Shown: piece by piece, positions 7,054-20,725 of the stretch | Numbering within the stretch: the stretch's first letter is position 1 | Layout of the letters: every line of letters starts with the position of its first letter | Virus record (IMG/VR): IMGVR_UViG_3300036791_000681 | Span: 1 to 26,617 of that record | Source: a virus | Reading direction: 5' to 3' (one strand) | DNA: 26,617 nt | Notes under the pieces: model-generated | Database searches by the model: none | What the model saw: only the letters and a program-made list of their open reading frames with translations | What the model was told of the DNA's origin: nothing | Made by a program: the position numbers and the translations under genes

Positions 7054-7913
7054 GCCGCTTTTGCCTCCTCGTTCGCGCCGAGCAATTGCATCGCTTTCTC
7101 AAACACTTCTTCTGGAAACGTGCGGTAAAGTTCGTGGCAGCCACTCTCGCAGCTCGCTCGACATGGCGGCAACGCGTGGCAACCCTGGCAACCCAGGCTT
7201 TTTTTGCAGATAGAAGTGACCGCGCTTTTAGGCAGGTAGCGATAGATGCGGTCGCTCGTCATTCCATGAATAGCAATAACCGGCGTGCCAATCGTGCCGG
7301 CAACGTGCGCCGGGCCGCTGTCGTTACAAATTACGAGCTTGGCCTGTTGGATCGCCGCGGTGACGTAAAGTATGGACTTGTCGTAGATGTCATGAAAAAC
7401 GGTGAACGGAGGCTCGCGTTTTTCGTAAACGACTTTGAGTTTTATGCCCGCACGAGCGAACAAAAGTCCAAGCTCGATAAAGTAATTCTTCGGCCACGTG
7501 CGGGGCGGCGAATGGCAATTTGGGAACATCAGCACAGTCGCCGAATCTCTACGCCCCATTTCGCGCTCCATCGGCGGAAGGTCAAGCCGCGGTTTGGCAG
7601 GCGGCACAAACCAAATACCTCGCTTGTCGTCGTCGTTCTCTCGACCGTACAGTCCAAGCTGCGCCCCTATCCATTCCAAGTAATTGAGCGGCGATTTGAC
7701 GCGAACGCACGTTTCGTAACCGACATTGGCAACAATCGCGTCTGTTGGATCGCCGGTCACTTCGAGCTGAAATGCCCGCAGCATGTCGGCGCGCCAGTCG
7801 GTAGCGTAAAAGGTGGCGGGTCGCCCGGCCTGGTGCAAACCCTCGCCGAGCCATGCGTAACATACGATGTCGCCCAGGCCCCTATACCAACCATTGACCG
7901 TGTTAATCTTCAT
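7050..7913 (-). CDS. Glycosyltransferase family 9 (heptosyltransferase-like)
   Basis: A 287-residue protein. N-terminal segment RGLGDIVCYAWLGEGL matches the GDx-x-A start of GT9 enzymes. The hallmark NDSGPAHVAG followed by TIGTPVIAIHG lies near residues 195-217 and forms the sugar-nucleotide site in heptosyltransferases. A cysteine cluster (CQGCHALPPC, then CESGC) lies near residues 240-262, a metal-site-like feature seen in some GT9 proteins. Length is about 50-60 residues below typical WaaF/WaaC, with a short N-terminal domain. It lies directly after the capsid gene (58-base gap) and is coupled to the methyltransferase. It probably adds sugar to LPS, another glycan or a virion protein; the acceptor is unknown. 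Confidence 0.85.
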   Translation of the reverse strand: MKINTVNGWYRGLGDIVCYAWLGEGLHQAGRPATFYATDWRADMLRAFQLEVTGDPTDAIVANVGYETCVRVKSPLNYLEWIGAQLGLYGRENDDDKRGIWFVPPAKPRLDLPPMEREMGRRDSATVLMFPNCHSPPRTWPKNYFIELGLLFARAGIKLKVVYEKREPPFTVFHDIYDKSILYVTAAIQQAKLVICNDSGPAHVAGTIGTPVIAIHGMTSDRIYRYLPKSAVTSICKKSLGCQGCHALPPCRASCESGCHELYRTFPEEVFEKAMQLLGANEEAKAA

Positions 7914-7971: not shown

Positions 7972-10050
7972 TTAGTGACTTGAACCGCTACCAGCGTTCG
8001 ATTTAAGCAGCGTGCCGGCGTTGCCTTGCCCCGCCGCAGTTCCGAACATCAACGCGATTCGGCTGCTCGCTGTCGCCATTTGGTGCGTCACAAATTGCAC
8101 CAGCATTACAGTGATCCCGATGTCGGGTTCGGTCACCATTTGCACAGTGCCATATGACGCGCCTGGCATTACGCTCGTATAATCGCTCGGCGTCCGAGTC
8201 ACAATTATCAGCGCGCTTTTGCTTGCCGCGAATCCGTTCAGGTTCGCGTTATTGGTTGGCAGGTTTGGAGCGTTCACCACCTTGAACCCCTCAACGTTAA
8301 TGGCGTAATTTGCGCCGTCCTGTGTTTGGCCTGTGATCAGTTCCGGTCGTTGGAACGTGGCCAGACTTACAATTGCCGAATCTTTTTCCAGTTGTCCAAA
8401 GAACGTGGAATAAAGCAGCAGCGTCCTGCTACCCGGCAGATTTGGCACTCCTCTCAGTGTCAGGTTTGTTGCCAGATCGATCACGGCGTTTCGGTTAAAT
8501 ACTCCGATCGCGCTGACTTGGTTATTGGTGAAGTTGGCATCCGTAATGTTGCCGTAAAGACCATCCACCAAACTTTTGCCGAGCGCGTAGGATTGCGCTG
8601 GCGCAAATTCCTCGAACAATTTGCGCACAGTCGATGCGAGGATTTGTTCGTTAAACGTGATCTGCACTCCCTTGTGATTATTAAGCACTACAGGCACATC
8701 TCCAGTGGCCGCGGCTGAATCCGCCCAACCAGTCGAAGTGCTGTAGGTTGACACCGTTGGGATCGTGACCGTCCGCGTCATTATGGTCTGGTTGAATGTC
8801 ACCGGTTGATCGCTGAAATCGGTAGTAAACGATGTCAGCTCCGGGAAGATGAATTTCAGCAGTTCCAGTGTTCGCTGCGTTACCAGCGTGCCAGCCAGCG
8901 TCCCAAGACTTGCGTCAGTAACGTCGCCCGCCATGATAGCTGATTTATTGAGGTCACGCACCGGCATCCCGAGAATCCGGCTTTTCTTTGAAAGGTCGAA
9001 CTCTTCAGCGTAAACGGCCGCGAACTCTCTGGCCGCAACCATTTTCTCGCCGTGTTCTCCAAAGGCGGTGGCGCGTTGAAGCGTTCGCATCTTCGCGCAG
9101 ATAGCGGTCGGATCGTCCGACACAATTTGGATTTGGCGGCCAATGATTCGTTCATTTAGCCGGTCGGTTTCTCTCGGTATCGATTTGAGTATTGGCAGGG
9201 CTGAAGGATCAGCGGTAAGCCGTTTAACCCACCATTCCTGCGTTTTAATGTCCTTTGCTTTGATGCGACCTTCGAGAATTGCGTCTTTCACATGTGCTTT
9301 TGCATCATCCTGTGATCGTTGCAGGATAAGTTTTTCTTGTTCTTTGGCTTTGAGTTCAAACTCGTTCGCCCTAACCTCTGCCTGAATTGCCCTGACTTCG
9401 GCGTCTTTATCTTCGCCGGATTCCTGTTTAGCCTTCAGTTCAGCCAGTTGCTTTTCTAACTCCGCTTGATTCGCCCGGAGCGCAGCGATTTCGTTGTCTT
9501 CCATTTGTTGTTGTTCCTTTGTTTGTTGTTTGTCACCTGCGTCTCCGCTGGCGTTTTTCGCCCATAAGGGCAAAATATTATGAAAAGCCGGGTCATTGAT
9601 CAGCGCACCCATGTTGGCTTTAGCACCTTTGCGACATTGAATTTTCGCTGGGTCTCCGTGCTTATCGTCCACATAAAACACGGGCGAGAAGTAACGATAC
9701 TCTTTTCCTTCAACGCTCTGCTTGCCGCGCTGGGTCCATTCGCCTTTGGCGTAAATCCCGTCCGGTTTCCATGAGAATGATTCAATCCAGAACGACGCGG
9801 GACCATCCGCATGATCAAAGTCGAAATACGGTTGGCGACCTTTGCCGGCGAGATGCGCGCGCTGCGCTTCGATCTCCGCCGCGCCATTGGCGTCTACGTT
9901 GATCTTGATAGGTTTCCCAACACCACCGCTAAATGGCGTGATTTCCTGAAGTCCGGCAGGCATGTACATCGCCTCGCCGGTGATGGTCGGCGCAAGCTGA
10001 ACGCGCGACCTGCAAAGTATTGCGCCCTCGAGTTGGGTTTCGTCAGTCAT
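7972..10050 (-). CDS. Capsid maturation protease - scaffold - major capsid protein fusion
   Basis: A 692-residue single polypeptide. Residues 1-165 match Mu gpI-like phage proteases: PYFDFDHAD with candidate catalytic His80, and EYRYFSPVFY with candidate Ser122. Residues about 170-260 are a Q/E/K-rich coiled coil as in scaffolds. From about residue 373 (MAGDVTDASLGTLAGTLVTQ) to the end is an HK97-fold-like major capsid protein, about 320 residues, with PVTFNQTIMTRTVTIPTV and a long beta-rich C-terminus. In Mu, protease (I), scaffold (Z, made from an internal start in I) and capsid (T) are separate products. Here all are in one frame. ATG 10050 overlaps the preceding small gene as ATGA and has GGAG four bases upstream. 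An internal ATG at residue 183 is credible (see separate entry). Confidence 0.88.
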   Translation of the reverse strand: MTDETQLEGAILCRSRVQLAPTITGEAMYMPAGLQEITPFSGGVGKPIKINVDANGAAEIEAQRAHLAGKGRQPYFDFDHADGPASFWIESFSWKPDGIYAKGEWTQRGKQSVEGKEYRYFSPVFYVDDKHGDPAKIQCRKGAKANMGALINDPAFHNILPLWAKNASGDAGDKQQTKEQQQMEDNEIAALRANQAELEKQLAELKAKQESGEDKDAEVRAIQAEVRANEFELKAKEQEKLILQRSQDDAKAHVKDAILEGRIKAKDIKTQEWWVKRLTADPSALPILKSIPRETDRLNERIIGRQIQIVSDDPTAICAKMRTLQRATAFGEHGEKMVAAREFAAVYAEEFDLSKKSRILGMPVRDLNKSAIMAGDVTDASLGTLAGTLVTQRTLELLKFIFPELTSFTTDFSDQPVTFNQTIMTRTVTIPTVSTYSTSTGWADSAAATGDVPVVLNNHKGVQITFNEQILASTVRKLFEEFAPAQSYALGKSLVDGLYGNITDANFTNNQVSAIGVFNRNAVIDLATNLTLRGVPNLPGSRTLLLYSTFFGQLEKDSAIVSLATFQRPELITGQTQDGANYAINVEGFKVVNAPNLPTNNANLNGFAASKSALIIVTRTPSDYTSVMPGASYGTVQMVTEPDIGITVMLVQFVTHQMATASSRIALMFGTAAGQGNAGTLLKSNAGSGSSH
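9502..9520 (-). promoter_or_regulatory. Candidate internal ribosome-binding site and start (Met183) within the protease-capsid gene
   Basis: Leftward reading gives AAAGGA at 9520-9515, a 10-base A/C-rich spacer, then ATG at 9504-9502, in frame with the fusion. Translation from here would give a 510-residue scaffold-capsid product lacking the protease. The CAA-rich sequence resembles the leader before the gene at 6007. In Mu the scaffold gpZ arises from an in-frame internal start inside the protease gene, so a similar arrangement is plausible. Confidence 0.5.
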
Positions 10051-15179: not shown

Positions 15180-15452
15180 TCAACCTTCCATGTTCCGAAG
15201 TTCGCTCCGGGTTTTGGCTAATCTGCGCCGTAAACTGGCAATGTAAAATCGATCCTGCTCCGCGAAGCAAAGTCCGATGTGCCAGTTGAGGAGTTCAGTG
15301 AGCATAGCTACTCTTTCGCCTTTGGCTTTGATCTTTTCCTTCGTTGCTCGGTACTTTTCGAACTCAGTGGACTTGATTCTCACAAACTTACTGTTTCTAT
15401 TCGCGCCGCGATGAGAATGCAAGGTGAATTGTAAGCGTTGACTGCGACGCAT
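15180..15452 (-). CDS. Small helical hypothetical protein upstream of the terminase genes
   Basis: Up to 90 residues, basic and helical, with MLTELLNWHIGLCFAEQDRF and RRRLAKTRSELRNMEG near the end. The stop lies two bases before the small-terminase start, so it would be co-transcribed. The ATG at 15452 has no ribosome site and falls inside a palindrome; GTG at residue 24 or ATG at residue 50 are alternatives. No family recognised. It could be a true gene or only leader sequence to the terminase operon. Confidence 0.45.
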   Translation of the reverse strand: MRRSQRLQFTLHSHRGANRNSKFVRIKSTEFEKYRATKEKIKAKGERVAMLTELLNWHIGLCFAEQDRFYIASLRRRLAKTRSELRNMEG

Positions 15453-15465
15453 TTATGCGTAGCGT
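15438..15465 (+). promoter_or_regulatory. Candidate early promoter
   Basis: TTGACT at 15438-15443, 16-base spacer, TAGCGT at 15460-15465 (TANNNT form), then 8 bases and the ATG of the 15474 gene. This predicts a transcript starting at or near the start codon. The spacer contains a 14-base palindrome (15447-15460), so the site could be repressed. Confidence 0.4.
15447..15460. promoter_or_regulatory. Palindromic operator candidate ACGCATTTATGCGT
   Basis: ACGCAT and ATGCGT are perfect inverted halves around TT. Two further symmetric pairs lie just outside one mismatch. The site is between the -35 and -10 of the rightward early promoter and at the start of the leftward terminase-side gene, the classical place for a repressor to govern divergent transcription. 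No repressor gene was identified in the window. Confidence 0.4.
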
Positions 15466-15473
15466 TATGGATC

Positions 15474-15635
15474 ATGGGAAAGACGAAGAACAGGAACGCG
15501 GTTGCCCTTGGCCGTTTAGGTGGCAAAGCTGGCAAGGGCAGCGAAGCCCGGAAATGGGCGGCGCGCAAGGCAGCGAGAGTGCGATGGGATAACCATGCGA
15601 AGCGGTTAGCATCAGGCGTGCCAAATGGCCAATAA
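15474..15635 (+). CDS. Small basic VALGRLGGKAG-type protein
   Basis: A 53-residue protein starting MGKTKNRNAVALGRLGGKAG and containing EARKWAARKAARVRWDNHAK. The VALGR-x-GGKA ... AR-x-AARxRW pattern belongs to a widespread set of short basic proteins of unknown role in bacteria and phages, perhaps binding nucleic acid. The ATG at 15474 is chosen because the family normally begins just before that motif; the upstream frame begins with a TTG overlapping the -35. It has no ribosome site and may be translated from a leaderless message. Confidence 0.7.
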   Translation: MGKTKNRNAVALGRLGGKAGKGSEARKWAARKAARVRWDNHAKRLASGVPNGQ

Positions 15636-15664
15636 ATATTTTAGATTATTTTTATGCGGTGCTG

Positions 15665-15694
15665 TTGACACATGCGAAGCGCTAGGCATATTGA
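15665..15694 (+). promoter_or_regulatory. Candidate early promoter with perfect -35
   Basis: TTGACA at 15665-15670 is a perfect -35. A weak -10 (TATTGA, 3 of 6) follows 18 bases later, 4 bases before the ATG at 15699. A start so close to the start codon again suggests a leaderless message; alternatively the downstream match is chance. Confidence 0.4.
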
Positions 15695-15698
15695 CGAC

Positions 15699-15878
15699 AT
15701 GAACAAAACAAATCAGACAGTAAAACGCGAGACGTATGGCAACTACACATTTAATCTCACTCGGGACGGATCATGCTATGTGACCAGATTCGGGCAGTAC
15801 GTGGCAACGTTCGGAAACGCCAGAATAGCGGAAAACTACGTTAACTCAATCGCCAACGTCGAAAAGGGAAATCAATGA
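15699..15878 (+). CDS. Small hypothetical early protein
   Basis: A 59-residue protein starting MNKTNQTVKRETYGNYTFNL, followed by a strand-rich middle (CYVTRFGQYVATFGNARIA). The ATG at 15699 is preferred over an in-frame ATG nine codons earlier because the latter falls in the promoter spacer. There is no Shine-Dalgarno sequence. The stop overlaps the next start as ATGA at 15875-15878. No family recognised. Confidence 0.65.
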   Translation: MNKTNQTVKRETYGNYTFNLTRDGSCYVTRFGQYVATFGNARIAENYVNSIANVEKGNQ

Positions 15879-16147
15879 GAAACCAATACGAGGAACCGCG
15901 ACAAACGACTTGGGACGGTAACGGCGATCAGCCCGAACCGCCGAGTGATTACGAGCAAAACTTTCCCTGTGATGAACCGGAAATGTTTAGCTTCGAGTGG
16001 ACTTGTCGCGCGCTCGGCCTACCTGTCCCCGAAGAAATTGTAGAACAAAACGATTGGTTAGATCGGAACCGAGACGAAGAAGCTTGGGAGCGCGAACAAG
16101 CCGAGAAACACGCACGCGAACAATCAATGCAACCAGACCATGACTAA
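15875..16147 (+). CDS. Acidic hypothetical early protein
   Basis: A 90-residue, strongly acidic protein rich in E, D and N, with PEMFSFEWTCRALGLPVPEE and WLDRNRDEEAWEREQAEKHA. It is coupled to the previous gene by ATGA, with AAAGGG about 7 bases before its ATG, and overlaps the next by 8 bases. Its acidity is compatible with a DNA-mimic or host-inhibitor, but nothing specific supports that. Confidence 0.68.
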   Translation: MRNQYEEPRQTTWDGNGDQPEPPSDYEQNFPCDEPEMFSFEWTCRALGLPVPEEIVEQNDWLDRNRDEEAWEREQAEKHAREQSMQPDHD

Positions 16148-16364
16148 GGAATTAAATCATAGAATAGCTAATGCGCTGGAAATCTGTAATCAGATGGTGG
16201 CGCGAGAACTTGGAAGCCCTCAACGCAAAGCACGCAAGCGCACGGTCAAGGCACAACCAATGCCAGCATCTCCAAAACTTAGAGCCGTCAACGCATATCG
16301 CAAAGCACATCCCAATTGTTCTCTGAGGGAAGCAGCAATAGCAGCAGGATTCAATATAAAATGA
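16140..16364 (+). CDS. Basic hypothetical early protein
   Basis: A 74-residue protein with a helical N-terminus (MTKELNHRIANALEICNQMV), a basic linker (RKARKRTVKAQP) and a C-terminal segment AVNAYRKAHPNCSLREAAIA ending AGFNIK, which looks like the recognition part of a small helix-turn-helix. It overlaps both neighbours (8 bases upstream, ATGA downstream at 16361-16364). DNA binding is plausible but unproven. Confidence 0.65.
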   Translation: MTKELNHRIANALEICNQMVARELGSPQRKARKRTVKAQPMPASPKLRAVNAYRKAHPNCSLREAAIAAGFNIK

Positions 16365-16924
16365 CTGATAATACGATCACAACTTACAACGGCCTTCTCA
16401 AACAGAGACCGACTAGTCCAGCGCCGCGCGTTGGCGAACAACGATATTTTTCCTGGCAAGAGCGCACAGGAAAAAGAGGAAACCCATACACACACGTAAA
16501 AAACGAGCAAGCCGAGTATGGCGGGCAGCTCTGCGAAATCATATCAAGCGAGCAAACAGACTACAAGGACGCGCACGGCAATCTTAGCTTCAACGTGGAG
16601 TTCACGCCGTTGAACGGCAGGGGTGTTCAGCCTGCTACGGCTGCGAGCACGGAAGGTCCGAACGTCTCGCCCCCTGCCAATCCTGTCGGCAACGGATTAG
16701 ACGAAACGCGACGCCACCTAATGCAGGTCGCGAACCTTTACAATCTCTGCGTCAAAGCGGTGAACATCACCGTCGCGCCGAACGTACCGGAAGCACTACA
16801 AACCAGCGAATGGCTACAAGCCGCAGTCTCGTCGTTGTTCATCGAGGCGACAAGACATCAGAAACCCGGCGAACGCTGGACATCGTGGGCGGACAAAATG
16901 CCGGAGAAACCAATTAAATTATGA
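16361..16924 (+). CDS. Hypothetical early protein
   Basis: A 187-residue protein when started at MTDNTITTYNGLLKQRPTSP, the ATGA overlap with the gene before. Residues 25-85 are beta-rich with basic and aromatic residues (QRYFSWQERTGKRGNPYTHV, QLCEIISSEQTDYKDAHG, FNVEFTPLNGRG), possibly an OB-like or ssDNA-binding fold. The C-terminal 75 residues are helical (ETRRHLMQVANLYNLCVKAV). It sits among replication-associated early genes and is coupled downstream by ATGA at 16921-16924. No family recognised. Confidence 0.7.
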   Translation: MTDNTITTYNGLLKQRPTSPAPRVGEQRYFSWQERTGKRGNPYTHVKNEQAEYGGQLCEIISSEQTDYKDAHGNLSFNVEFTPLNGRGVQPATAASTEGPNVSPPANPVGNGLDETRRHLMQVANLYNLCVKAVNITVAPNVPEALQTSEWLQAAVSSLFIEATRHQKPGERWTSWADKMPEKPIKL

Positions 16925-17175
16925 GCAATCCATCCAGCGCCTATCGATCAAGCTACCTTTACGTCCAATATAGGACACGGAGGAGGCTTCACATTTTGGC
17001 CGGTGCTGATGTCGGCAAGACAGCGGACGAAGTAGCGGACAATTTGCTTAATGAAATCATCGAAGCCAAATATCCGCAGGTTATAGAAGTAGAGAAGCAG
17101 ATTGCCGGGATCGAAAAAGATTTGGCTGCAATCTTGCGAAAAGATAAACTGAAAGGAACGCCGCTTGAAGATTAA
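16921..17175 (+). CDS. Small hypothetical early protein with C-terminal coiled coil
   Basis: An 84-residue protein. The N-terminal third is aromatic and basic (SSYLYVQYRTRRRLHILAG). The rest is helical (ADEVADNLLNEIIEAKYPQV, EVEKQIAGIEKDLAAILRKD) and could form a coiled coil. The start overlaps the previous stop as ATGA, and the end overlaps a TTG-started gene at 17165. No known family. Confidence 0.65.
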   Translation: MSNPSSAYRSSYLYVQYRTRRRLHILAGADVGKTADEVADNLLNEIIEAKYPQVIEVEKQIAGIEKDLAAILRKDKLKGTPLED

Positions 17176-17329
17176 AACGAGTTGGGTTTGGCCTCCAATC
17201 CCGAATCGTTCCATGGATTGGTGCGCGTACGTTGATGGCAATGAAGAAGGAGCGCTCGGATGGGGCTCGACCGAACGAGAAGCCAAAGAAGATTTACTGG
17301 AAAAACTCAACGCCATGCCCAAACCATGA
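17165..17329 (+). CDS. Small conserved phage protein (WPPIPxRxMDWCAY type)
   Basis: A 54-residue protein beginning at TTG 17165 and overlapping the preceding stop. The core WPPIPNRSMDWCAYVDGNEE with GWGSTEREAKEDLLEKL matches a common small phage protein with a PPIP-x-R-xxDW-AY segment and a G-x-G-T-ExEA-xDL helix; that resemblance is what reveals it. ATG at 17214 is an alternative but would cut the conserved PPIP segment. It is coupled to the next ORF by ATGA (17326-17329). Function unknown. Confidence 0.7.
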   Translation: MKIKTSWVWPPIPNRSMDWCAYVDGNEEGALGWGSTEREAKEDLLEKLNAMPKP

Positions 17330-17478
17330 ACAAATACACAACAAACTACCCGCTTGCGGTTCTGAGAACCGTGTGGAGAAAACTGGCAAGGAGAAAACAT
17401 GAAACACAACCGTCGAAAACACTCCCCATTAAAATGGCTCGCCCTCCATTTGATGTGGTTCACGTTCGCAAAGTCTGA
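17326..17478 (+). CDS. Possible small basic protein (overlaps another ORF)
   Basis: A 50-residue ORF beginning MNKYTTNYPLAVLRTVWRKL, coupled to the previous stop by ATGA. It is basic throughout. Its last 80 bases overlap the 34-residue ORF at 17399 in another frame; perhaps only one is translated. No family recognised. Confidence 0.4.
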   Translation: MNKYTTNYPLAVLRTVWRKLARRKHETQPSKTLPIKMARPPFDVVHVRKV

Positions 17479-17503
17479 CCGAACCGTTTACGAGAGAAAA
17501 TGA
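17399..17503 (+). CDS. Possible 34-residue basic peptide with strong ribosome site
   Basis: The ORF begins MKHNRRKHSPLKWLALHLMW and ends TVYERK. AAGGAG lies about 5 bases before the ATG, the clearest Shine-Dalgarno sequence in this operon, and its stop overlaps the next ATG as ATGA (17500-17503). It contains a short hydrophobic stretch (WLALHLMWFTF). It could be a genuine tiny membrane-associated peptide or a reinitiation relay to the 17500 gene. Confidence 0.5.
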   Translation: MKHNRRKHSPLKWLALHLMWFTFAKSDRTVYERK

Positions 17504-17901
17504 AACGCTCGTTTGCCTATGCAGCAGCCGAAGCGCAATCCCGCCTCGATGCCGCGAGCGGAGAATTGTTCGCCAAGCTCGCATACAATAAAGACTATAA
17601 CGCGGGACTTCAAGAATCCGATACTTGCGCTAATCGTCACAAGGGCGCACCGACATCCGTTCAAGCTCACAAACGCATCAGGGGAGGCTTGAGCGCACGC
17701 CGCGAGGCGGTTTATTCGATGATTAAAGAATGTCATTTAACCGGATTGACGTGCGACTCGCTTGCTGATTTTTGGAAGATAAATCCTAATTCAATCAGTG
17801 GTCGCTTCTCGGAGCTTGCGCGCGACGGTAGGATCGAGAAATTCGGAACGCGCAAGACGCGCTCTGGCTGTCCGGCAGCGGTTTGGAGGGCCAAGCCATG
17901 A
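17500..17901 (+). CDS. Winged-helix DNA-binding protein
   Basis: A 133-residue protein. Residues 50-133 form a winged helix: RREAVYSMIKECHLTGLTCD, then SLADFWKINPNSISGRFSEL as helix-turn-helix, and ARDGRIEKFGTRKTRSGCPA with AVW as the wing. The GAPTS linker followed by this domain is frequent in phage early proteins, thought to be regulators or replication accessories. It is coupled to both neighbours by ATGA (17500-17503 and 17898-17901). Target sites are unknown; the palindrome at 15447 is one candidate. Confidence 0.8.
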   Translation: MKRSFAYAAAEAQSRLDAASGELFAKLAYNKDYNAGLQESDTCANRHKGAPTSVQAHKRIRGGLSARREAVYSMIKECHLTGLTCDSLADFWKINPNSISGRFSELARDGRIEKFGTRKTRSGCPAAVWRAKP

Positions 17902-18104
17902 ACGATACCGAGAAGCATCCGTTAGATAGCAGGATACTGAAATGTGTGAGGTGTGGGTTTTGCGAAACAGAGTTGTCGGCTCGACTCAGGAGATTCGACC
18001 ACCCTGACGCCCGAAAAGGATTTGAGGTAAAGCATTGTCCCGGATGCGGAGGCGATACAAAAATTCTGCTCAAGATCGCCGCAGCGTTGGGGGGCGAGCC
18101 ATGA
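17898..18104 (+). CDS. Small zinc-ribbon protein
   Basis: A 68-residue protein with two cysteine pairs, CVRC (in KCVRCGFCETELS) and CPGC (in VKHCPGCGGDTKI), the pattern of a two-knuckle zinc ribbon of the Com/transcription-factor type. Between them lies an Arg/Asp-rich loop. Start MNDTEKHPLD overlaps the previous stop as ATGA; its own stop overlaps the next start likewise (18101-18104). Mu Com is a zinc-finger translation activator of comparable size, but similarity here is only at the motif level. Confidence 0.75.
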   Translation: MNDTEKHPLDSRILKCVRCGFCETELSARLRRFDHPDARKGFEVKHCPGCGGDTKILLKIAAALGGEP

Positions 18105-18286
18105 CCACACACGCTGATGAACTGAATGAGAAGCGATGTTTGGCGCATCAGATCATTTTCGACTTATTTGAGGCAAAGGCAACGGGACAGATTGCGCTGC
18201 TTTTAATGGCGTGCAGTCTCGCACATAAGCAACTCGCGCCAGAAGATCATCAAAAATGGCTACAGTCGAAGGTTTCCGAGTTATGA
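18101..18286 (+). CDS. Small helical hypothetical protein
   Basis: A 61-residue protein (MTTHADELNEKRCLAHQIIF ...) that is largely helical with a hydrophobic middle (ATGQIALLLMACSLAHK). It is enclosed by ATGA overlaps at both ends. No family recognised. Confidence 0.65.
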   Translation: MTTHADELNEKRCLAHQIIFDLFEAKATGQIALLLMACSLAHKQLAPEDHQKWLQSKVSEL

Positions 18287-18765
18287 CCACACCACGATCA
18301 CGCGCTGACACCGACAAGATCAACGCCAAGCTTGACGCGATAGAAGCTATAGCTGGCGAAGTTGGAGGACTAGGAATAAGTGATAGCAAAAGGCTTATCG
18401 ACGCGCTGAGGATTGCGCTGGAATGGTTCAAGTCATTAACCCCACTACAACGAGACAACGCGCTGCGAGAGATTGCCGAGGCGTTGGCTGACGCCCGCGC
18501 TGGCGAGCAGGGAGGCGAACGTGTGCCGCATCGTGTGCGGCGTGACCCAGCTAAGCCCATTTGCCTTTGCATGATCCTTGAACGGACGAATGAAGTCGTA
18601 ACGGTAGCGATTTCTTCCATGCCTTACGACGGGCTGAAGCATATATGGCTCTCTAAGACCGTAGCCCTGAAGGAACTTCCTAAAGGCGTTAGTGAGCGGC
18701 ACGGTCCGTTCTTCACGGTCTTTGAAGCTAATAATGGGGCGGGTGACGAGGTAATTGAGCCATGA
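18283..18765 (+). CDS. Chimeric early protein whose C-terminal half reads antisense to an integrase fragment
   Basis: A 160-residue ORF, coupled by ATGA at both ends (18283-18286, 18762-18765). Residues 1-68 are a normal helical phage-like portion (INAKLDAIEAIAGEV, LIDALRIALEWFKSL, ALREIAEALADARAGE). From about residue 69 the rightward frame reads through a segment whose opposite strand encodes a tyrosine recombinase C-terminal domain, so residues 69-150 are probably non-homologous, overprinted sequence. The frame remains open and coupling to the next gene is kept. Either the longer product is tolerated or it has become functional. The N-terminal half is likely genuine; the original stop was probably lost at the junction. 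Confidence 0.6.
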   Translation: MTTPRSRADTDKINAKLDAIEAIAGEVGGLGISDSKRLIDALRIALEWFKSLTPLQRDNALREIAEALADARAGEQGGERVPHRVRRDPAKPICLCMILERTNEVVTVAISSMPYDGLKHIWLSKTVALKELPKGVSERHGPFFTVFEANNGAGDEVIEP

Positions 18766-18777
18766 ACCATCAAACAA
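18445..18777 (-). pseudogene. Tyrosine recombinase (integrase) C-terminal remnant, antisense in the early operon
   Basis: The leftward frame encodes 110 residues. From about residue 18 to 97 (18726-18487) it reads like a phage integrase catalytic domain: REERTVPLTNAFRKFLQGYG, LREPYMLQP, a basic RNRYRYDFIRPF, then WVTPHTMRHTFASLLASAGV. HTMRH is the conserved HxxR box (His81, Arg84). Homology stops right after GVS: the expected lead into WLGH and the catalytic Tyr is replaced by unrelated residues. The N-terminal domain and the box I arginine are also missing. It lacks a start region and cannot be an active recombinase. It was probably brought in by illegitimate recombination. Confidence 0.8.
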
Positions 18778-18956
18778 CGTACACCGGAAAATATGTCATT
18801 ACCCAATCGACTATAGACGATACTTGGAAAGTCAAAATAACCGAGACAGAGCAACTCGTTGCTTCTTGTCCCGACCAGTCGTCAGCAATTAAAGTTGCTC
18901 ACGGTCTTTGTGCTTTACACAGAGAAAAGCAAAACACAGAGGGGGTGAGACAGTGA
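18762..18956 (+). CDS. Small hypothetical early protein
   Basis: A 64-residue protein (MNHQTTYTGKYVITQSTIDD ...) with two or three strands followed by a helix (QSSAIKVAHGLCALHREKQ), the layout of small phage proteins with a beta-beta-alpha fold. Its start overlaps the chimeric ORF and its stop overlaps the GTG of the next gene as GTGA. No family recognised. Confidence 0.68.
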   Translation: MNHQTTYTGKYVITQSTIDDTWKVKITETEQLVASCPDQSSAIKVAHGLCALHREKQNTEGVRQ

Positions 18957-19081
18957 AAAAACAACCTAAGAAACTGCGGAACCCAGTGGTCAAAACCAAG
19001 GTCGAAAAAAAATTGGAAATGAACTTGGGCGCTAAGACGCTACGTAAGAGACGGGAAATGTTCCGATTTTTCCGTGCCTAA
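18953..19081 (+). CDS. Tiny basic protein at end of first early operon block
   Basis: A 42-residue protein started at GTG 18953, overlapping the preceding stop as GTGA, with a G-rich AGGGGGTGA ribosome site 4-5 bases upstream. It is highly basic (KKQPKKLRNPVVKTKVEKKL, TLRKRREMFRFFRA), suggesting nucleic-acid contact. The terminator at 19136-19186 follows. No family recognised. Confidence 0.6.
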   Translation: MKKQPKKLRNPVVKTKVEKKLEMNLGAKTLRKRREMFRFFRA

Positions 19082-19135
19082 ACAACACTAATTTCACTGG
19101 AAATATCGGCATCAGTCTGTCCACGCAGACAAAAA

Positions 19136-19186
19136 CCCCGGCAGTCGCTTATTTTTTACGAGGTGGCGATTGCCGGGGAACTTTTT
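19136..19186 (+). terminator. Strong intrinsic terminator
   Basis: CCCCGGCAGTCGC (19136-19148) pairs with GCGATTGCCGGGG (19166-19178) over 13 pairs with one G-U, around a 17-base loop, followed by AAC and TTTTT at 19182-19186. An A5 run lies just before the stem, so the structure could also work leftward. It separates the first early block from the replication genes. Confidence 0.85.
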
Positions 19187-19189
19187 CGC

Positions 19190-19217
19190 TTGCATTAGTT
19201 GATTGAATCCTTACTGT
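19190..19217 (+). promoter_or_regulatory. Candidate promoter for the replication block
   Basis: TTGCAT at 19190-19195, a 16-base spacer and TACTGT at 19212-19217, then 7 bases and the ATG at 19225. It lies just after the terminator, as expected for a fresh transcript. Transcription would start at or near the ATG, with no Shine-Dalgarno sequence visible. Confidence 0.4.
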
Positions 19218-19224
19218 AAGCGTC

Positions 19225-20079
19225 ATGTCTTATTCAAAGCTTTTCTCGTCAATAGTTCATTCATCGCTATGGACTGAAGAAGATCATGTTCGGCTTCTCT
19301 TCGTAACACTTCTCGCAATAGCTGATCGAGAAGGTCACGTTTATGGGTCGCGCAATGGCTTGGAGCGCGCGGCAAACATTCAGTACGATGTTGACGCAGG
19401 GGACGTTGACCCGTGGCAAGCCTTAATGGAGCCGGATTCGGATAGCGCGGATTTGATGCGAAACCCGGAGAACGAAGGGCGACGAATAGAAGCCGTGGAC
19501 GGAGGTTTCCGTATCCTGAATTATTTATATTATCGCTCATTGCGCAATGACGACGATAGACGTGAACAGAACCGGGAAGCTCAACGTAAATTCAGAGAAA
19601 GATCAGTAAGCCGTAATAAGCCGAGGTCAGCCAATGTCAAGCGCGTTAAGCCAGAATCAGCGCATGCAGATGCAGATGCAGATGCAGAGAGCAGAAGCAA
19701 AGAAGAAGAGATATATCTTGTCTATCCGAGGCATGAGGGAAAGCCTTCAGCGCTCCGAGCCATCCACAACGCGCTGTGTAACGGCTCGACATTCGAGTTC
19801 CTTCTTGAACGCACCCAAGCTTATGCCGCTACCCGCGCGCCGCGCGACAAGTTCACTCCGCTACCCGCGACATGGTTTAACGATCAACGATTTAATGACG
19901 ATCCTTCAGAGTGGTCACGGAAAGATAATGGCTCGAAATCAAAACAACGCGCGCCGTCCGGCCCCGCGTATCAGCCCGTCGAGTTCGGCCCGGAACTCAC
20001 CGATGAACAGATCGCGAAGAACAAAGAAGTAATCGCGCGCGAGAAGGCGATACTCATGCAGAAATTCAGACCGCACTAA
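19225..20079 (+). CDS. Phage replication protein (replisome organiser / DnaD-like type)
   Basis: A 284-residue protein. Residues 1-105 match the usual N-terminal winged domain of phage replication initiators: YSKLFSSIVHSSLWTEEDHV, LLFVTLLAIADREGHVYGSR, ALMEPDSDSAD, then NEGRRIEAVDGGFRILNYL. A basic linker follows, then an Ala-Asp repeat from a GCAGAT microsatellite. The C-terminal part has the IYLVYPRHEGKPSALRAIHN pattern with ATWFNDQRFNDDPSEW, seen in proteins that recruit host helicase. It begins a new transcription unit after the terminator. No helicase or primase is found nearby, so host replication machinery is probably used. Confidence 0.82.
   Translation: MSYSKLFSSIVHSSLWTEEDHVRLLFVTLLAIADREGHVYGSRNGLERAANIQYDVDAGDVDPWQALMEPDSDSADLMRNPENEGRRIEAVDGGFRILNYLYYRSLRNDDDRREQNREAQRKFRERSVSRNKPRSANVKRVKPESAHADADADAESRSKEEEIYLVYPRHEGKPSALRAIHNALCNGSTFEFLLERTQAYAATRAPRDKFTPLPATWFNDQRFNDDPSEWSRKDNGSKSKQRAPSGPAYQPVEFGPELTDEQIAKNKEVIAREKAILMQKFRPH
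19666..19689 (+). repeat. GCAGAT hexanucleotide microsatellite
   Basis: Three GCAGAT units followed by GCAGAG encode Ala-Asp-Ala-Asp-Ala-Asp-Ala-Glu in the linker of the replication protein. In-frame hexamer changes would alter linker length without breaking the gene. Confidence 0.9.
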
Positions 20080-20090
20080 AAGCGAAAGCT

Positions 20091-20504
20091 ATGACAAAAG
20101 AGGAATTACTGCGGATCGCACCAAACGCTTCGGCAGATACGATAGCCGCAAACACTGCTTCGCTCCCCGCCTCTGAGGCGGGGCTTCGCAGTGCAAGCAC
20201 GCCCAAAACCGAATCCCGCCTCGAGATGAATCGGACGGAGCACGAATACTCGCTGATTCTCAAGGCCGCGTATCCCGATCAGATCATCCGGTTCGAGGAA
20301 ATTAAGCTGCGAATTAGCGATGGCTGCTGGTACACCCCTGACTTTTTCCTGTTCGTGAACGGACAACCAACGTTTTTCGAGGTCAAAGGCGCGCACGTGT
20401 GGGACGACAGTCGCGTAAAGTTCAAGGCTGCGCGCGAACTTCACAAGTGGGCTAATTTCGAGATGCACCAAAAAACCAAATCGGGTTGGAAGCAGATACT
20501 ATGA
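20091..20504 (+). CDS. DUF1064-like nuclease / Holliday junction resolvase-like protein
   Basis: A 137-residue protein. The core from residue 46 (NRTEHEYSLILKAAYPDQII) contains ISDGCWYTPDFFLF and PTFFEVKGAHVWDDSRVKFK, a PD-(D/E)xK nuclease pattern with Asp84 and the EVK residues Glu97 and Lys99, as in phage DUF1064 proteins thought to act as resolvases or endonucleases in recombination or packaging. Residues 1-45 are an extra N-terminal stretch that carries a palindrome (20165-20183); Met46 may be the family-typical start. It is coupled to the following ORF by ATGA (20501-20504). Confidence 0.82.
   Translation: MTKEELLRIAPNASADTIAANTASLPASEAGLRSASTPKTESRLEMNRTEHEYSLILKAAYPDQIIRFEEIKLRISDGCWYTPDFFLFVNGQPTFFEVKGAHVWDDSRVKFKAARELHKWANFEMHQKTKSGWKQIL
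20165..20183. repeat. Perfect short inverted repeat within the nuclease gene
   Basis: CCCCGCCTC, T, GAGGCGGGG: nine-base arms around one base, flanked by the direct hexamer CTTCGC at 20158-20163 and 20184-20189. It resembles small repetitive extragenic palindromes, yet lies in frame inside the N-terminal extension of the nuclease. Confidence 0.7.
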
Positions 20505-20725
20505 CGCTTAAACCAGCTCAAAACGATTTCTATAGCAAGGAGAGGCGGCAAGAACATGGCAATTAGAAGGCGCTTAAAGGGCAATCCAACAGGATTGACC
20601 CTAAAACGGGCAAACGTCGAACAATCGGAGCCACGTTTTATTGCCAGAATTGCGGCAATACTTACGTGGAATGCAAATGCAAGGTGTATCAAAGCGCCCA
20701 CGCGAAAGGCCGAACGGATTACTGA
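20501..20725 (+). pseudogene. Zinc-ribbon protein interrupted by an in-frame amber codon or frameshift
   Basis: From the ATGA-coupled ATG at 20501 the frame runs 21 residues, meets TAG at 20564-20566, then continues open for 52 residues with KALKGQSNRIDPKTGKRRTI, GATFYCQNCGNTYVECKCKV and AKGRTDY. The CxxC ... CxC set is a clear zinc-binding pattern. A second start, ATG 20556, lies about 12 bases after AGGAGAGG and reads MAIR before running in the wrong frame; a -1 shift after MAIR would join it to KALKGQSN, which looks natural. So it is one gene with a single-base deletion or sequencing error, a nonsense mutation, or recoding. As written, no canonical start gives the zinc ribbon. The ATG 20556 frame runs 61 residues without recognisable motifs. 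Confidence 0.62.

Follow-up and report, generated by a model that had tools for sequence, protein, structure and literature searches.

An antisense piece of a tyrosine-integrase gene in the early gene block of a metagenomic virus, probably a recent mosaic scar

Illegitimate recombination near gene boundaries is an accepted origin of phage mosaicism, and the mosaic junctions of tailed phages are sharp joins near such boundaries, made without extended homology and leaving the neighbouring genes functional (PMC3029335, PMC2327257). Incomplete tyrosine-integrase sequences are also found in lytic derivatives of temperate phages; in the S. thermophilus phage TP-778L, the integrase gene was truncated where it normally lies, when the prophage was excised by recombination at that locus (PMC3952083). 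The locus described here is a new example of the mosaic process: it shares the features of tailed-phage junctions listed above, but what was captured is an internal, antisense piece, not a whole gene, and its source gene belongs to a different class of element. It resembles TP-778L in that a phage genome carries an incomplete tyrosine-integrase sequence, whereas this sequence lies antisense within an early gene block, and neither an att site nor lysogeny genes were found with it in the window.

The window analysed here is positions 1-26,617 of the IMG/VR virus record IMGVR_UViG_3300036791_000681, a single, incomplete contig from one metagenomic assembly. The record is linear (26,617 bases), and searches of the window detected neither end repeats nor tRNA genes. 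Most of the structural genes (portal, head protease, head morphogenesis and large terminase) are oriented leftward, and a rightward block of small genes, the early genes, extends over ~15.4-20.5 kb and includes the following two.
19225-20079, plus strand: replication-initiation-like protein
20091-20504, plus strand: Holliday-junction-resolvase-like protein

The integrase fragment and the reading frame that crosses it

A working tyrosine recombinase has the complete R-K-HxxR-H/W-Y catalytic set and an N-terminal DNA-binding domain. The original prediction had placed a recombinase catalytic core with an HxxR box on the leftward strand, and the database profiles agree with it: the leftward ORF 18445-18777 contains HTMRH and matches PF00589 (Phage_integrase) with an E-value of 1.8e-7 over profile positions 59-148 of 172, and the phrog_1 integrase family with one of 1.7e-9. 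Its PF00589 score of 31.6 bits exceeds the curated cut-off of 27.1 bits, which makes it a family member as a sequence homolog. Our own profile of five intact relatives, run against all six frames of the window, matched the fragment with 134 bits (E 2.6e-40) and gave no second significant match; no further integrase pieces were found elsewhere in the window. Judged from these scores, the integrase match is far beyond chance. As a working enzyme the fragment does not belong to the family: alignment with the intact relatives and with the profile confirmed that the box I arginine, the catalytic tyrosine and the N-terminal domain are all missing, as had been predicted. With no start, no box I arginine and no tyrosine, it has no integrase function.

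The predicted ORF exists, but the integrase sequence within it is shorter than had been proposed, with homology running from 18487 to ~18727, at most to 18735; in its outer parts (18445-18486 and ~18736-18777) the ORF reads the flanking rightward genes in antisense. At one end the homology begins just before KDREERTVPL, a conserved segment that is retained in the fragment and had gone unmentioned in the original prediction. Homology to L011/L012 extended weakly upstream of 18735, but this part was dropped, since the alignment of the family profile begins only at IISFK. The features of this region are as follows.
18487..18727, minus strand: tyrosine-recombinase (integrase) gene fragment, probably captured; ~80 codons, FKDREERTVPL...HTMRHTFASLLASAGVS; ~240 bp (241 bp between the junctions), without its own start or stop
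18283..18765, plus strand: chimeric ORF, with 68 native codons, ~80 antisense codons through the fragment and ~12 further codons
18762..18956, plus strand: next rightward ORF, whose start overlaps the stop of the chimeric ORF (ATGA)

The 68 native codons of the chimeric ORF are homologous to a gene at 8004-8237 of another phage contig, L034, and its TGA overlaps the ATG at 18762 with which the next ORF starts. Across the fragment the three antisense frames contain 0, 6 and 10 stop codons, and the chimeric ORF uses the frame with none, which shares its codon boundaries with the integrase. Since the same antisense frame is open in three of the five intact relatives, its openness is explained by the codons that integrases use and provides no evidence of a new protein. 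A conserved family belonging to the rightward frame would have spoken against the original prediction; searches of Pfam, PHROGs, phages and viral contigs revealed none, and homologs of the chimeric product in phages and viral contigs were confined to the native first 68 residues.

To assess how recent the capture is, we compared the fragment with its intact relatives. The fragment retains 35 of the 37 positions that are invariant among three intact relatives, and each of these relatives, treated likewise as a control, retained 35 of 39, 35 of 40 and 35 of 44, so that the fragment is no less well conserved than the intact members. Mismatches between the fragment and L010, one of the relatives, number 24, 21 and 49 at the first, second and third sense codon positions, respectively, as compared with 22, 18 and 46 between two intact genes, and the fragment has neither stops nor frameshifts. 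The retention of invariant positions, together with the normal codon-position divergence, points to a recent capture from a functional gene; on these comparisons, the fragment diverged as a functional gene nearly until it was captured.

Junctions with the flanking phage genes

The contig L034 carries the receiving gene in a form that holds no integrase sequence, and the following features were defined in this comparison and with the integrase homologs.
18480..18488, no strand: left junction, flanking phage gene ...GCGTTGG followed by integrase antisense GCTGACGCC
18724..18735, no strand: right junction zone, end of the integrase homology
18084..18487, plus strand: mosaic block in common with L034 (85.5% DNA identity), in which lie the gene 18101-18286 and the first part of the chimeric ORF
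17886-17903 and 18086-18105 of the window, and 7802-7825 and 8216-8238 of L034: sites of a gene-end string, at which mosaic blocks start or end

The identity with L034 ends exactly at 18487, which fixes to the base the left junction that the original prediction had guessed near this position. In the window, GCGTTGG is directly followed by the integrase antisense GCTGACGCC, the last G being common to both, while in L034 the same gene runs GCGTTGG-AGGGCAATCAATGA and ends in ...REIAQALEGNQ*, with an ATGA overlap with the next start. The two parents thus share only ~1 bp at the join, which is the signature of illegitimate recombination. Taken together, the L034 flank without the insert, the sharp join and the little homology at it identify the locus as a mosaic insertion by illegitimate recombination, the right side of which was judged from integrase homologs only. 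These homologs place the right junction at ~18727-18735, without fixing the exact base. As no relatives of the downstream ORF 18762..18956 were found, insertion and replacement look alike at this locus, and the right junction is inexact.

The site of the antisense fragment is a gene boundary at which mosaic blocks meet. Both edges of the block 18084..18487 coincide with the GCGTTGG gene-end motif, the left one (18084) at the gene end GCGTTGG...GGGC(G/A)AGCCATGA. A recurrent string, (GCG)TTGGAGGGC(A/G)AGCCATGA or close variants of it, was observed at gene ends. We read these strings as a Shine-Dalgarno sequence combined with an ATGA overlap, and as tolerant joining points. The ~400-bp L034-like block is itself mosaic and may have come to lie beside an older integrase piece. 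In L034 (7617-8237), two nearby small genes have similar ends, ISEALEGKP* and IAQALEGNQ*, and an AL(K/R)IAL motif in common, suggesting that they may be paralogs of the receiving gene.

Intact relatives and possible donors

The three nearest intact relatives all run beyond both ends of the fragment: L002 (370 aa), on an IMG/VR viral contig; L006/L010 (367 aa from the listed start), in a MAG labelled Spartobacteria; and L009/L036 (354 aa from the listed start), in another genome of the same phylum (Verrucomicrobiota). Their identities to the fragment, computed across 79 aligned residues, are 59%, 66% and 65%, respectively. All three go on with I-(F/Y)-K-(I/V)-A-x-W-(L/M)-G-D-D-V-R-V-V-Q, at which point the window sequence gives way to that of the flanking phage gene, read antisense. 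A tRNA-Val(gac) gene lies close to the start of the intact integrase in each of the two Verrucomicrobiota genomes. The fragment is like this PF00589 subgroup in its level of identity (59-66% over the 79 residues), its HxxR box and its KDREERTVPL segment, and unlike it in being a fragment only, which lacks the N-terminal domain, the box I arginine and the nucleophilic tyrosine.

One of these Verrucomicrobiota genomes contains an integrated element of ~16.9 kb (L041:12116 to L036:10057; G018:C1 ~478115-495056), and the first 40 bases of its tRNA-Val(gac) gene recur as a perfect repeat ~16.9 kb away. The element carries the tyrosine integrase at the tRNA end, a primase-like gene and an AAA_25 protein gene, as well as a type III restriction-modification pair, a DrmD-like helicase and an AriA-like ATPase. 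It is a defence-loaded element, possibly satellite-like, which would use the 5' half of the tRNA as its attachment site. A type IIG (MmeI-like) restriction enzyme gene is found near the second intact relative (L006:5117-11058), which is separated by 45 bp from tRNA-Val(gac); unlike the ~16.9 kb element of G018, the element around this relative was not delimited. This integrase subgroup seems to move defence-loaded integrative elements. E. coli is known to have defence islands that carry integrases and whose mobility is unclear (PMC10121019). No donor closer than 66% identity was found, and the fragment may have come from such an integrative element or from a prophage. Of the original proposal of illegitimate recombination with a host or prophage integrase gene, the recombination is borne out by the sharp L034 junction, and the donor could have been any mobile-element or prophage integrase.

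Origin of the fragment

We consider it highly likely that a mid-gene piece of ~240 bp from a tyrosine-integrase gene was captured in antisense orientation by illegitimate recombination and is read through as a recent, neutral scar. The piece would derive from the middle of a functional integrase gene of a mobile element, and would have been joined to a small early gene at its 3' end, practically without microhomology. Its stop-free antisense frame, being in codon register, would allow the upstream phage gene to read through the fragment and still reach the ATGA overlap, so that translational coupling to the next gene would be kept. The fragment is probably tolerated because the antisense frame is open and the ATGA overlap is retained. 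The left junction is directly shown to the base, and the capture event as such is inferred. The alternative closest to the original prediction is that a once-temperate lineage lost its lysogeny module and that the fragment is the last piece of its own integrase, decayed in place. The sequence is indeed that of a genuine, recently functional integrase, and one of its relatives (L002) is on a viral contig. However, searches of the window revealed no second integrase piece, no resolvase and no HTH_3 repressor, so the fragment does not appear as a remnant of a lysogeny module, although absences from incomplete contigs are not final. Tyrosine integrases were likewise absent from four contigs of 36-56 kb related through terminase, replication or early genes (G002, G003, G004 and G393), records that may be incomplete and are suggestive only. 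In addition, the sharp left join lies inside a gene that L034 carries without the fragment, and the orientation of the fragment opposes the operon. The proposal that the fragment testifies to a temperate lifestyle since lost is not supported, and we consider decay in place improbable.

An assembly or amplification chimera, in which case the fragment would be missing from the real phage genome, has to be considered for a single metagenomic contig with two junctions within 241 bp. It is, however, quite improbable: as the left join shares only ~1 bp and the 12-mers at either junction recur nowhere else in the window, a misjoin through shared k-mers is unlikely, and a random chimera would only by luck have left the rightward ORF open and the ATGA overlap intact after two joins. 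Selection for a function could also be envisaged. The phage might have stolen a fragment of a competitor element's integrase and transcribe it early, within the operon transcript, as a natural gene-silencing RNA of 240 nt that lowers the competitor's integrase expression. The sole positive points are the antisense orientation inside the rightward early gene block and the nature of the relatives, which lie beside tRNA-Val with anti-phage genes, one of them on a delimited integrated element, and would make a plausible enemy. The best nucleotide identity to the known relatives is ~60%, however, with a longest exact match of 14 nt, and neither a well-complementary target nor a conserved second example was found, so that we regard such silencing as very improbable. 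Even less credible is that the antisense-encoded tail has given the 160-aa chimeric protein a function under selection. An unbroken ORF and the retained ATGA overlap with the following gene speak for this, but the tail has neither a family match nor a homolog, and the openness of its frame is expected from the integrase codons. We therefore favour the capture by illegitimate recombination, the fragment being probably a recent and neutral mosaic scar rather than a working gene.

So understood, the locus provides a cleanly delimited example of phages picking up gene fragments of other elements, with one junction exact to the base and a recent capture, in which a selective filter for an open frame and a kept ATGA overlap would explain the tolerance of the fragment. 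It is also a warning for annotation and lifestyle prediction: a phage with an integrase-family match above the cut-off is not necessarily temperate.

A scan of 15300-20600 for leftward promoters gave none close to the integrase fragment, and the total counts were lower than those in shuffled sequences. For the early gene 17500-17901, no relatives were found in viral contigs besides L005, which had itself been collected via another gene. DNA matches to 388 Verrucomicrobiota genomes were short, many of them falling in the conserved HxxR segment of the fragment, and gave no host call; a terminase search of the same genomes yielded matches of only ~30-36% identity. Between the ORFs ending at 18956 and starting at 19225, the window contains an inverted repeat, CCCCGGCAGTCGC...GCGATTGCCGGGG (19133-19185), followed by a T-rich sequence, which is a possible terminator that a simple scan passed over on account of its long loop.
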